Part shown: positions 19,482 to 23,147 of the stretch, in pieces
How positions within the stretch are numbered: the first letter of the stretch is position 1
How the letters are laid out: every line of letters starts with the position of its first letter
DNA from: Acidimicrobiales bacterium
Lineage (GTDB): Bacteria; Actinomycetota; Acidimicrobiia; Acidimicrobiales; Palsa-688
Reading direction: 5' to 3'
Length of the DNA: 52,067 bases
NCBI GenBank assembly: GCA_036378675.1
Contig: DASUWA010000053.1
Span: 1 to 52,067, forward strand
Program-made: the position numbers and the translations under genes
The notes under the pieces: model-generated
Databases searched by the model: none
Told to the model about the DNA's origin: nothing
The model's input: only the letters and a program-made list of their open reading frames with translations

Positions 19482-20072
19482 TCAGCCAGCCAGTGCCTCG
19501 GGCGCTGCTGAGGCATCGAGGAGCCCCACCACCAGTCCGAGGACTATTTCGAAGGTTCGATCGCCGTCGAGCGAACCGGTGAGAAAACCAGCATTTTCGA
19601 GCACTATCACGCCATGGAGAGCTGAAAACGCGCTCACCTGGAAGTCGAGTGATACGTCGTCAATGCCGTACGACTTGATGATCGCGGCGAAGGCAGCGAT
19701 GGCATCGGCGCTGGCGTCGGTGAACCCTTCGGGGTCGTGCGGTTGGCTCATTGCCAAGCCGTAGCGTCCAGGGTGGGTGCGGGCGTACTCCCTAAGGATG
19801 TGGGCCAGCGCCCGGAGCCCCCGCTCACCTGTCTTGCCCATGGCCTCGTTCCGGAGGAGCGTTCCGAGTTCCCGCATCGTGCGGTTCTGGAGTTCGCCTC
19901 TGAGTGCGTCAAGGCTGGGGACGTGGTTGTACAGCGACGACACCTTGACGCCGACGGCCTTGGCCAGCGCGGTCATGGTCAGAGCCTCCGACCCCTGCCT
20001 GTCGACAAGCGTCTCTGCTGCCGACAACACAGCTGCCCGGTCGAGGCGGCGGCGGCTGCCCTCGGTGACCAT
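19482..20072 (-). CDS. TetR/AcrR-family regulator (WHG/TetR_C-type ligand domain)
   Basis: 196 residues from ATG 20072. Helix-turn-helix: AAETLVDRQGSEALTMTALAKAVGVKVSSLYNHVPSLDALRGEL. The C-terminal domain (ALAHILREYARTHPGRYGLAMSQPHDPEG, VSAFSALHGVIVLENAGFL) belongs to the WHG-type ligand-binding group. The start is fixed by a TATAAT box 6 nt upstream; a longer open frame to 20123 would read through the operator. A perfect 7-bp dyad overlaps that -10 box, so autorepression is very likely. The WS/DGAT gene downstream on the same strand is a possible second target. Ligand unknown. Confidence 0.9.
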   Translation of the reverse strand: MVTEGSRRRLDRAAVLSAAETLVDRQGSEALTMTALAKAVGVKVSSLYNHVPSLDALRGELQNRTMRELGTLLRNEAMGKTGERGLRALAHILREYARTHPGRYGLAMSQPHDPEGFTDASADAIAAFAAIIKSYGIDDVSLDFQVSAFSALHGVIVLENAGFLTGSLDGDRTFEIVLGLVVGLLDASAAPEALAG

Positions 20073-20078
20073 GTCGTG

Positions 20079-20099
20079 ATTATACGAAACCCTTTCGTA
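20079..20099 (-). promoter_or_regulatory. TetR operator overlapping a TATAAT promoter
   Basis: TACGAAA-CCC-TTTCGTA (20083-20099) is a perfect inverted repeat. Its promoter-proximal arm shares two bases with the minus-strand -10 box TATAAT (20084-20079), which lies 6 nt from ATG 20072. A bound repressor would block polymerase directly. Confidence 0.8.
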
Positions 20100-20132
20100 A
20101 AGAGTCAAGGGGCATTCGGTCAATTCGGAGCG

Positions 20133-21854
20133 TCAGTGGCTCCCCAGTTGCACCGCTTTGACAAGGAGAAGGACGGCGCTGAGCACCAGGTATGCCCGCA
20201 GCGAGAGGATGCCGATCCTGAGGCCGGGAGACCACCGAACGGGCTTGAGCAAAGTGAGCGGGGGCATCCGCCAGGACATCTTCTCGGATGGGCTCATGAC
20301 CGGAGTTGGCGGGCGGCGCCGGCCAGAACGGCGCGCGGCCATTCTCAGCCACAGGAAGGCGCCAGCGCCGGCGACCCCAAGCGTGGCGGACAACACGACG
20401 AGAACGGCGGTGACATTGATGTGAGAGAACAACGTGGTCGCCATGAGCGTCCCGGACAGCACCAGCAGAGTCCCGACGATCAGTGACGCGACCGCGTTCA
20501 ACCACCCCGGGTTGATCCACGGGCCCAGCACCTCCGGATCGTTGCAAAGCAGCAGGAGGAAGACGCTCGCCGACGGCAAGAGCAGGCCTGCGAGGGCCTG
20601 CACCGAGGTGGTGATCAACCCCAAAGGCGCACCGGGGATGAGCACTATCCCGGCGGCCACCCCGACCATCGCGGCGTAACTCAAATAGAACTGCTTGGCT
20701 TCCCCGAAGCGGCGGTGAAGAGAATGGCGGATGCCGAAGACGTCACCGAACGCGTAACTGGTCGACAGGGTGACCGCCGCTGCGCCGATGACGCTCGCGT
20801 CGAACAGGAGGACGGCGAACAGCCCACCGAGGACGCCGCTCCTGTGTGAGAGGAGATGGGCCACACCAAGTGCGTCGGTGAAGTTTCCGAACCCGGAGGT
20901 TCCGGTGGCCGCGTAATTGGCGGTCACCATGATTGCGGCGGCTCCGCCCACCACGACCAACGAGCCGATGACCGTGTCCGCCCGCTCGTACGAGATGAAC
21001 CGAGGGGTGATTCGTTTGTCGACGATGTTCGATTGTTGGAAGAAGAGCTGCCACGGTGCGACGGTGGTCCCGACGATCGCAATGATCAACAGGACAGCAG
21101 CCGACGTGACACCGCCGTGTATGCCGGGGACCACGAAGTCATGGGCGATCGTGCCCCAGTGCGGTTTCGAAAGAAAGAACATGGGGACCTGGATGAGGCT
21201 GATCGCGATGAAAACGAACATCGAGCGTTCCCACCGGCTGAAGCTCCCGCTGGCCATGATCGCTACAAGCGCGACAGCCGCGAAGGGGACGGCTATGTAG
21301 TGCGAGATGCCCGCATAGCTTGCGGCGAGCGAGATGCCGATGAACTCGGTGACGATGGTCAAGAAGTTGAGGACAAAGAGGTCGCCGACGCTGAACCAGC
21401 CCCAGCCCCGCCCAAAACGCTCGTTGATGAGCCGGGCGTGACCGACGCCGGTCACCGCGCCGAGCCGGACGACCATCTCCTGATTCACCACAAGAACCGG
21501 AATGAGCAGGAGCAGAGTCCAAAGCAGGGTGGTGTTGTAGTTCTGGCCCGCTTGGGCGTAGGTAGAGACGCCTCCGGCGTCGTTGTCGCCCACCATGACG
21601 ATGATCCCGGGCCCAACGATCGCCGCCAGGGTGAGGAGTCGCTGCCGCAAGGTGCGGCGCTCGCCTACATCGGTGACCGAAATTTTCCCGAAGGCGCCCT
21701 GGATGTCTCCCAGGTGCGCTTCGTCGAGCACGGCGGACGGCCTGGCTCGGAGGTACCGGCCGGTCTCCGGCGTCTCCTCCGGCGCTTCCTCGGGGCGTGA
21801 CTCTCCCGCCGCCCCGGGGCCCTTGGCGCCGCTGGCGGCTAGACGGTCCGTCAC
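20133..21854 (-). CDS. NRAMP-related metal transporter with NRMT-type (Mg2+) binding-site substitutions
   Basis: 573 residues with an ~70-residue cytosolic N-terminus and about 11 membrane helices of the LeuT-like NRAMP fold. Canonical NRAMP Mn2+/Fe2+ transporters carry DPGN in TM1 and MPH in TM6. Here TM1 reads DAGG (residues 92-95) and TM6 reads APW (266-268), so the soft Met ligand is replaced by Ala and the Asn by Gly. Such changes characterise NRAMP-related magnesium transporters. The gene starts 3 nt after the stop of the PRC-MgtE_N-CBS gene and is surely co-translated with it. I infer Mg2+ uptake; Mn2+ or a broader divalent range is possible. Confidence 0.85.
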   Translation of the reverse strand: MTDRLAASGAKGPGAAGESRPEEAPEETPETGRYLRARPSAVLDEAHLGDIQGAFGKISVTDVGERRTLRQRLLTLAAIVGPGIIVMVGDNDAGGVSTYAQAGQNYNTTLLWTLLLLIPVLVVNQEMVVRLGAVTGVGHARLINERFGRGWGWFSVGDLFVLNFLTIVTEFIGISLAASYAGISHYIAVPFAAVALVAIMASGSFSRWERSMFVFIAISLIQVPMFFLSKPHWGTIAHDFVVPGIHGGVTSAAVLLIIAIVGTTVAPWQLFFQQSNIVDKRITPRFISYERADTVIGSLVVVGGAAAIMVTANYAATGTSGFGNFTDALGVAHLLSHRSGVLGGLFAVLLFDASVIGAAAVTLSTSYAFGDVFGIRHSLHRRFGEAKQFYLSYAAMVGVAAGIVLIPGAPLGLITTSVQALAGLLLPSASVFLLLLCNDPEVLGPWINPGWLNAVASLIVGTLLVLSGTLMATTLFSHINVTAVLVVLSATLGVAGAGAFLWLRMAARRSGRRRPPTPVMSPSEKMSWRMPPLTLLKPVRWSPGLRIGILSLRAYLVLSAVLLLVKAVQLGSH

Positions 21855-21857
21855 GGC

Positions 21858-23147
21858 TTAACCCCGAGGCTCCAGGCTCTCCTGCTCCGTAGCGGCCAAA
21901 TCCCGCTCCGTCAGCACCGGCTCTGGATGTGTCGGAGGTTCTCGACGTCTCCAGTCATCTGGGATCGTCGCCTCCAGGATGTCGTCGACTGTGATAACCC
22001 CCACCATGTGGCCTTCCATGTCGACCACCGGAACCGTCATGAGGTTGTAATCGGCCATCAGGATCGCCACGTCTACGACGTCTGCGTCAGCCATAACCCG
22101 CACCGGGTCCGCGTCGACGATGTCCGTCAAAGGAGTATCGGGTTCGACCTGCAAGAGCCCTATGACTGTCGCCGTTCCGGCAAGACAGTCGTGTTCGTCG
22201 ACAGCGTGGACCGTGACGAGAGCCTCCGGCTGAAGTCCTTCCGATCGTCTGATCCTCCGGAGGGCCTCCTCGACGGTCGCGTTCAATGGCACCGCCAAGA
22301 AATCGACGCCCATGATTCCGCCGGCGCTGGTCGCGTTGAAGCTCAGAAGCGTCATCACCTTCGTACGCGTACCCGCAGGCAGCAGGTTGAGCACATTTAC
22401 GCGCCTCTGTTGAGGAAGGTCGGCGATGGCGTCTGCCGCGTCGTCAGCCCGCATATGGGCGATGACGTCGGCCACCTCGGTATCGGTCTTGTCCTCGAAC
22501 AGCCGGTTCGCCGTATCAGGATCAAGCTCCTCGAACACATCGGCCTCGAGCTCCGGATCCGTGTGCACGACGTCGAGGATCTCCTCGCCCTCCTTCTGTG
22601 ACGCGTCCTCGAGGAGATCCGCGATCTGAGCAGGTTTCAGCTTGCGGACCCTCCCGAAGCTCGCCCGTACGCGCACGCTGTCTTCATGGCCGATCAGCGG
22701 TTCGAACGCCTTCCAGTCCTGGCAGGGATGACCTGCGGTGGCAGGGATGATGCCGAACAAGCGCGCCGGGCGGCGGGTGTCCAGACACGTGAGGACCCAT
22801 CCCTCGGCTGTTTCGGTCAACTCGATGTCCCAGGCACGAACCAGCTCCGCCTCGGCGACGTCGATCAGCCGGTGACCGAGGATGTCGCGGCGCAGGAGGA
22901 CCTCGCCCTCCCGTCGTTCGAAGCTGCGCAGGTCCACGTTGGGATCGGCCAGGGTAACGTTGCCAGGTGCCAACTCGCTGATCCTGGCGACCGGCAGGAA
23001 GACCCTGCGGCCGCCCACTTTCGCGACCAACCCGGTCACCAAAGGAAGCTCGCCGCCGCGCAGGCGAACTATCACGTCGTCTACCCGCCCCACGCTCTCG
23101 CCGGTGGGCGACAGGATGTGACCCTTCAGCAGTGCTGAGAGCTTCAC
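21858..23147 (-). CDS. Soluble PRC-barrel + MgtE N-domain + CBS-pair protein (Mg2+ sensor/regulator)
   Basis: 429 residues from GTG 23147. Order: PRC-barrel-like N-terminus (about 1-70: GHILSPTGESVGRVDDVIVRL), a second beta-rich segment, an MgtE intracellular N domain (about 185-290: LEDASQKEGEEILDVVHTDPELEADVFEELDPDTANRLFE and DDAADAIADLPQQRR), and two CBS motifs (about 295-410: GGIMGVDFLAVPLNATVEEALRRIR; DADPVRVMADADVVDVAILMADYNLMTVPVVD and MVGVITVDDIL). In MgtE channels this N-CBS unit is the acidic Mg2+ sensor that closes the pore. Here the pore domain is absent and an NRAMP-type transporter follows 3 nt downstream. A TAGGGT box lies 6 nt before the start. Confidence 0.88.
   Translation of the reverse strand: MKLSALLKGHILSPTGESVGRVDDVIVRLRGGELPLVTGLVAKVGGRRVFLPVARISELAPGNVTLADPNVDLRSFERREGEVLLRRDILGHRLIDVAEAELVRAWDIELTETAEGWVLTCLDTRRPARLFGIIPATAGHPCQDWKAFEPLIGHEDSVRVRASFGRVRKLKPAQIADLLEDASQKEGEEILDVVHTDPELEADVFEELDPDTANRLFEDKTDTEVADVIAHMRADDAADAIADLPQQRRVNVLNLLPAGTRTKVMTLLSFNATSAGGIMGVDFLAVPLNATVEEALRRIRRSEGLQPEALVTVHAVDEHDCLAGTATVIGLLQVEPDTPLTDIVDADPVRVMADADVVDVAILMADYNLMTVPVVDMEGHMVGVITVDDILEATIPDDWRRREPPTHPEPVLTERDLAATEQESLEPRG

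Follow-up and report, generated by a model that had tools for sequence, protein, structure and literature searches.

Can the Mg2+-sensing half of a channel govern a transporter of an unrelated fold that is encoded next to it? This question is raised by two adjacent genes in a DNA stretch of 52,067 nucleotides from an Acidimicrobiales bacterium (assembly GCA_036378675.1, contig DASUWA010000053.1), the whole of which is referred to as the window. Both genes are on the minus strand. The upstream gene (21858-23147, 429 amino acids, GTG start) encodes a protein with a PRC-barrel-like domain, an MgtE_N domain and a pair of CBS domains that lacks a membrane domain, termed here the partner. The downstream gene (20133-21854, 573 amino acids, GTG start) encodes an NRAMP protein of the type of the NRAMP-related magnesium transporters (NRMTs). 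Three bases (21855-21857, minus strand) separate the TAA of the partner from the GTG of the transporter, and the two genes are in the same reading frame; when the open reading frames (ORFs) were read again, genes, gap and order were found where the initial annotation had placed them. In the reading that we consider best, with a probability of roughly 0.6, the pair is a two-component Mg2+ importer in which a portable cytosolic Mg2+ sensor curbs the NRMT in trans.

The transporter matched the Pfam Nramp family with 248 bits and scored below the cut-offs of all three of its NCBIfam MntH/Nramp matches. Its closest solved structure by sequence was EleNRMT from Eggerthella lenta (PDB 7qia; E value of 3.1e-54), with the runner-up at 1.1e-13. 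According to Ramanadane et al. (PMC8806188), the defining features of NRMTs are DxxG (helix 1) and TxxA/T (helix 6), which replace DxxN and A/CxxM. Transmembrane segment 1 (TM1) of the window transporter contains NDAGG at residues 91-95 and TM6 contains GTTVAPW at residues 262-268, which is one residue apart from GTTIAPW of EleNRMT, whereas the canonical NRAMP motifs DPGN and MPH are absent. Both parts of the NRMT signature are present, namely, DxxG as D92-A-G-G95 (21570-21581, minus strand) and TxxA as T263-T-V-A266, within the site TTVAPW at residues 263-268 (21051-21068, minus strand). An alignment to EleNRMT placed W268 (at the first canonical histidine) and Q273 at the histidine positions of the proton path and showed that the TM3 glutamate is kept (E170). 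DAGG, TTxAPW, the TM3 glutamate and the loss of the proton-path histidines are thus shared with EleNRMT, although the two proteins are only ~30% identical and the window transporter is longer by ~35 to 40 residues before TM1 and by ~100 residues at the C terminus. The replacements of DPGN by DAGG and of MPH by APW, noted in the initial annotation, were therefore both read in the protein and match the NRMT signature. Judged by its sequence, the transporter is an NRMT and would possess an Mg2+-type site, and we infer that Mg2+ is its substrate. A fold comparison of the transporter half of a model placed human NRAMP1 (Z score of 39.4), DMT1 (39.0) and EleNRMT (PDB 7qji; 38.5, root mean square deviation of 2.7 over 389 aligned residues) in a tie and hence shows the NRAMP fold and not the NRMT class. 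This comparison used the first of two pseudo-complexes described below; all matches were to the transporter, and the sensor half was barely probed.

In the partner, MgtE_N (residues 170-271; 22335-22640, minus strand) and one CBS stretch (residues 342-393) were above the Pfam cut-offs. The solved N-CBS unit of MgtE (PDB 2yvy/2yvx) aligned with residues 177-393 and covered both repeats of the CBS pair (~residues 275-395; 21963-22325, minus strand). The N-terminal domain (~residues 1-125; 22773-23147, minus strand) is beta-rich in the AlphaFold model, and its match to the PRC barrel (PF05239) was sub-threshold, with 17.1 bits versus a cut-off of 21.2. Among nine other proteins of the same layout that were scanned, seven were above this cut-off (loci L164, L165, L168, L171, L172, L176 and L178; L, G and C numbers designate loci, genomes and contigs), for instance L164 with 51.1 bits; L047 was below it, and no PRC barrel was listed for L040. 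The partner ends 36 residues past the CBS stretch and has no membrane domain or pore. It scored 118.6 bits against TIGR00400 (cut-off 232.75), and the pore and plug of the MgtE channel were not found. The domain matches agree with the architecture initially proposed, PRC plus MgtE_N plus CBS without a pore, with the PRC barrel below threshold here and above it in homologs. The partner is the sole MgtE_N match in its own genome, which is 97% complete.

To what extent are the sensor residues retained? We compared 105 distinct window-type partners, from which identical copies and loci without a usable partner match had been removed, with the site residues of Thermus thermophilus MgtE as given in PMC5882242 and PMC5529423. 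D91 and D95 were kept in all 105 partners and D247 in 104, and the position of E59 was occupied by Asp in 104 partners and by Glu in one. The window partner has Asp at all four positions (D203, D235, D239 and D389 at E59, D91, D95 and D247, respectively). As a background, an acidic residue was retained with a mean frequency of 0.43 at 44 further acidic positions of MgtE in the same 105 partners. In MgtE, E258 and D259 (sites Mg2 and Mg3) adjoin the plug residue I260 (PMC5882242). Mg2+ bridges the plug and the membrane part of the closed channel (PMC8104411), a bridge that E258 and D259 presumably make. In the partners, E258 was replaced by Arg in 100 of 105 cases and D259 in 94 of 105, and the window partner has R400 and R401 at these positions, just past the CBS pair on the minus strand. 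The retention of sites Mg4, Mg6 and Mg7, together with an altered Mg5 site and the loss of the plug residues, is largely what a detached sensor would be expected to show, and the partner is predicted to bind Mg2+. It resembles the cytosolic unit of MgtE in its domains and in these four acidic residues and differs from MgtE by the replaced plug residues, the missing pore, the additional PRC-like domain and the changes at the Mg5 and ATP sites detailed below.

The association of the two genes was then assessed in a phylum sample of 246 genomes, in which 150 NRAMP matches (a few NRAMP genes being split into two matches) and 150 MgtE_N matches were listed; the counts from this sample refer to these matches. 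The NRAMP matches comprised 70 NRMT-like, 33 intermediate and 47 canonical ones. An MgtE_N match was present within 3 kb of at least 44 of the 70 NRMT-like matches, whereas none was found near the 33 intermediate and the 47 canonical matches. The NRMT-like class was set by a profile (A1) of 12 rows that all derive from partner-linked genes, and the 44 of 70 may lean upward, whereas the 0 of 80 is independent of it. In the 44 linked cases, MgtE_N was located upstream in 41 and downstream in 3, always on the same strand. Furthermore, an MgtE_N match was present in 61 of the 63 genomes that have an NRMT-like match, as compared to 72 of the 183 genomes that have no NRMT-like match, but the sampled genomes are akin and Fisher values on this co-occurrence overstate the evidence. 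A second set was composed of the best 80 of 515 confirmed candidate loci in named genomes, all near relatives, which include Mycobacterium, Nocardia, Rhodococcus, Streptomyces, Kitasatospora and many metagenome-assembled genomes. The partner was found in the upstream flank in 76 of these 80 loci, and the remaining 4 were ended by the contig end. At two loci, L029 and L140, the partner gene has the opposite orientation, yet is still adjacent to the transporter. The co-occurrence survey proposed in the initial annotation thus revealed that the pairing of NRMT-like transporters with an MgtE_N gene is far beyond chance.

Taken together, these data suggest the following mechanism. The NRMT subunit would import largely hydrated Mg2+, and probably also Mn2+, without proton coupling, as does EleNRMT. 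The partner would be a cytosolic Mg2+ sensor of common ancestry with the regulatory half of MgtE. At high cytosolic Mg2+, the ion would occupy the equivalents of Mg4 (D91/D247), Mg6 (D95) and Mg7 (E59), and the loaded sensor would close up and keep the transporter inactive; a drop in Mg2+ would loosen the sensor and release the transporter. Physical contact between both proteins and inhibition as the sign of regulation are predicted parts of this scheme. A possible contact site is the cytosolic N-terminal tail of window-type transporters, which carries the signature VLDxAHxGDIxGAxGxI; in the window it reads VLDEAHLGDIQGAFGKI (residues 42-58; 21681-21731, minus strand) and is kept in the window-type clade. 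The tail survey considered transporters with a profile score above 520 as window-type and dropped ORFs without a recognizable TM1 or with fewer than 45 residues before it. The short pattern GxIxGxxGxI fitted 110 of 125 window-type tails and the long pattern, with the preceding DxAH, 102 of 125, as compared to 1 of 16 classic NRMTs for the signature. Nearly all unpartnered window-type paralogs examined retain at least the signature core. We would guess that the tail may be the docking site for a shared sensor.

Several observations, presented here with the alternatives that they favor, weigh against the two-component importer. The Mg5 site is altered, since D226 was replaced by Asn in 102 of 105 partners and D250 by Glu in 88 (Asp in 10), the window partner having N368 and E392. 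The ATP-site residues Y170 and R187 of MgtE are not kept in the partners, and ATP sensing by the CBS pair was set aside for this reason. In addition, 26 of the 70 NRMT-like matches were unlinked, including a second NRMT of the same genome; on inspection, three of them (G139, G278 and G288) do have a partner nearby, which leaves 23. AlphaFold2 modeling of the partner and the transporter, read as one chain through the partner stop codon, gave a pTM of 0.57, and a second pair (L178) folded in the same way gave 0.52. In both pseudo-complexes the halves were well folded and had no confident arrangement, a result that neither supports nor excludes contact.

The unlinked copies and the lack of a predicted arrangement would be in accordance with mere neighborhood in one operon, the two genes serving Mg2+ homeostasis independently and their products not interacting. 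In line with this as well, a search of 219 loci for a fusion of sensor and transporter detected 200 sensor ORFs and 195 transporter ORFs, and no ORF with both. We nevertheless consider mere linkage quite improbable, as it outlasts a change of strand (L029, L140), a large evolutionary distance and the loss of the membrane domain, and as an MgtE_N match is also present in 22 of the 24 genomes in which an NRMT-like match is unlinked. The second NRMT of the window genome (L034:8362-10065, plus strand; G000:C42) is ~53% identical to the window transporter, has DAGA in place of DAGG, and no partner gene is beside it. A large protein with repeated GGYWLVASDGGIF-like units was noticed by eye at L034:11585-13903 (minus strand).

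Is the ion indeed Mg2+? Mg2+ riboswitches (M-boxes) and published transport data point in different directions. We detected 28 M-boxes in the phylum sample and close relatives. Of these, 19 precede an NRMT-like match by no more than 4 kb, 4 are close to MgtE_N matches that have no NRMT, and 5 are elsewhere. M-boxes between partner and transporter were located at L047:2153-2324, G015:C73:16661-16835, G020:C210:17235-17403 and G027:C193:71562-71728. In G015, G020, G027 and G058, which encode transporters 63 to 68% identical to that of the window, the M-box lies between the two genes at 206 to 401 bases from the transporter match; at this position only the transporter would be under riboswitch control. 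When the best 80 of the 515 relatives were scanned, five loci (L060, L063, L064, L072 and L088) had an M-box ahead of both genes, in L060 at 1.4 kb before the partner ORF. Two others (L069 and L083) had one before a second, unpartnered paralog with DAGA that resembles the second NRMT of the window genome, and the remaining 73 had none. No M-box was detected in the window or in its genome. The riboswitch supports Mg2+ for the clade and marks only a minority of it, and the figure of 5 in 80 near relatives slightly lowers our confidence in the two-component Mg2+ importer.

The pair may instead handle Mn2+, or both ions, as a mainly Mn2+ importer whose sensor either reads Mn2+ or couples its uptake to the Mg2+ status. 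EleNRMT transports Mg2+ as well as Mn2+ (Ramanadane et al. 2022, PMC8806188). The more direct precedent is the gene pair of NrmT and an MgtE-like fragment reported by Shin et al. in 2014 (PMC4072509) for Clostridium acetobutylicum (Ca_c0685 operon) and Acidobacterium capsulatum (Acp2976/Acp2977), the latter with the transporter downstream as in the window. In their assays, the A. capsulatum transporter fully rescued Mn2+ uptake, whereas Mg2+ uptake was rescued only at low millimolar Mg2+, and coexpression of the partner gave no further gain in Mg2+ rescue. For the C. acetobutylicum pair, transport did not strictly depend on the partner. Of all the evidence, the A. capsulatum data speak most strongly against a general Mg2+ role, and Mn2+ stays a serious rival, to which the lack of an M-box in the window genome also lends weight. 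It is fairly unlikely in our judgment, given the M-boxes directly upstream of orthologs that are 66 to 68% identical (G020, G027 and G058), the M-box ahead of the Rhodococcus spelaei pair (L064), whose transporter is 71% identical to that of the window, and the DxxG/TxxA site, which matches that of EleNRMT.

The same study noted that most NrmT loci have an MgtE-like neighbor gene, and it suggested feedback regulation from the cytoplasm. Both the pairing and this regulatory idea were hence already published, and the hypothesis of the initial annotation is plausible and has gained support, though it is unproven and not new. The pairs of Shin et al. differ from that of the window, which has no M-box, a transporter with an N-terminal signature specific to its clade and an extended C terminus, and a partner with a PRC-like domain; the term "PRC" is absent from the main text of their article, as are "operon" and "CBS" from the main text of the EleNRMT article (PMC8806188). 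With respect to gating of the NRMT by the MgtE sensor in trans, the initial annotation was borne out in part. A sensor encoded in trans is tied to the NRMT clade, some orthologs carry M-boxes, and the sensor residues are kept while the plug is lost, but gating itself would be a prediction, for which modeling provided no arrangement.

Further evidence on the role of the partner comes from other forms of the sensor module. In other families, the NRMT-linked partner is encoded by an ORF of 607 to 681 codons and retains an MgtE-like membrane domain (L164-L167, L176 and L180-L195). The pore residue D432, or any Asp within three columns of it, was found in none of 21 such long partners and in none of 11 unlinked PRC-MgtE proteins, whereas all 8 ordinary MgtEs keep it. 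All 21 long partners retain the plug residues E258 and D259. They are possibly dead channels beside NRMTs, a view based on the pore Asp as the sole functional residue compared and weakened by the long partner of L165, which passes the NCBIfam MgtE model with 366 bits (cut-off 233). In a midpoint-rooted sensor tree of 77 rows, among them 14 of the 105 window-type partners, L177 and L179, which are devoid of a membrane domain, were nested among membrane-domain partners (support of 100/97), and L168 and L169 were sisters of L164/L180/L181 (99/93).

The L168 protein (L168:93-4046, minus strand; G256:C77) is a chain of 1318 residues in which PRC, MgtE_N and CBS are fused to an Mg2+-translocating P-type ATPase, with 1077 bits against TIGR01524 (cut-off 611). 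A gene in G298 (C8:6780-10730, minus strand) matches it over residues 2-1318 with 87% identity, and L169 holds 1244 codons of this gene. Of the 31 genomes of that class, 2 contained the full fusion, and no match covering 80% of it was found among the 5,000 best-scoring plasmid records. It shares the three-part sensor with the window pair, but consists of one chain with a P-type ATPase as the transporter, whereas the window encodes separate chains and an NRMT.

These fusions bear on yet another function of the partner, which, rather than acting on transport activity, might affect how stable the transporter is, how it inserts into the membrane or how fast it is turned over, or might serve as a chaperone or buffer for Mg2+. 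Shin et al. named chaperone activity as an alternative (PMC4072509), and the lack of a strict need for the partner in their assays as well as the failure of AlphaFold2 to arrange the pair are compatible with it. We regard this explanation as unlikely: the sensor residues are selectively kept, and in two genomes the module forms a single chain with a Mg2+ ATPase, nested among membrane-domain sensors, an arrangement that suggests regulation of the transporter to which it is attached.

At six loci the sensor stands alone without an NRMT nearby. A DUF1003 gene adjoins it in five of them (L198, L215, L216, L217 and L218), and the single ORF tested at the sixth (L219) was not DUF1003; this suggests a Mg2+ role for DUF1003. 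A full-text literature search, with subscription papers mostly outside its scope, retrieved no article that pairs the PRC barrel or DUF1003 with MgtE, and no description of a P-type ATPase/MgtE/CBS fusion was found in the texts it covered; among the titles retrieved, none besides those cited here dealt with the pairing of NRMT and MgtE-like fragment.

Two further elements were observed next to NRMT genes. In the window, a TetR-family regulator gene (19482-20123, minus strand) starts 9 bases past the end of the transporter gene. As a conserved operon member it was rejected, since its only matches in 163 loci, at an E value of 1e-10, were the copies of the window itself (L003, L004 and L134). 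A c-di-GMP-II riboswitch match (L178:3609-3674, plus strand) directly follows the NRMT gene of L178.

Considering these different forms, the odds appear about even that the module of PRC, MgtE_N and CBS is a governor by Mg2+ that can be transferred and that, in the course of evolution, came to be fitted to Mg2+ transporters unrelated to one another. It would act in trans on NRMTs, in cis on a P-type ATPase and perhaps in trans on DUF1003, and would be attached elsewhere to MgtE-like membrane domains without the pore Asp, which are maybe anchors only; the window pair would represent the fully detached form. This use of one sensor module by several transporters of unrelated kinds is a more interesting lead than the window pair itself. 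In relatives with the transporter alone behind the riboswitch, transcription and activity would be governed separately by Mg2+. What the MgtE-like fragment does next to NRMTs was left open in the 2014 article, and the patterns reported here sharpen the predictions: D235, D239 and D389 are predicted to be important for sensing and the former plug positions to be unimportant. The natural fusion to a P-type ATPase makes sensor regulation accessible on a classical enzyme. If the proposal is true, a single interchangeable sensor would regulate unrelated bacterial Mg2+ importers, which would amount to the exchange of a regulatory module between folds.

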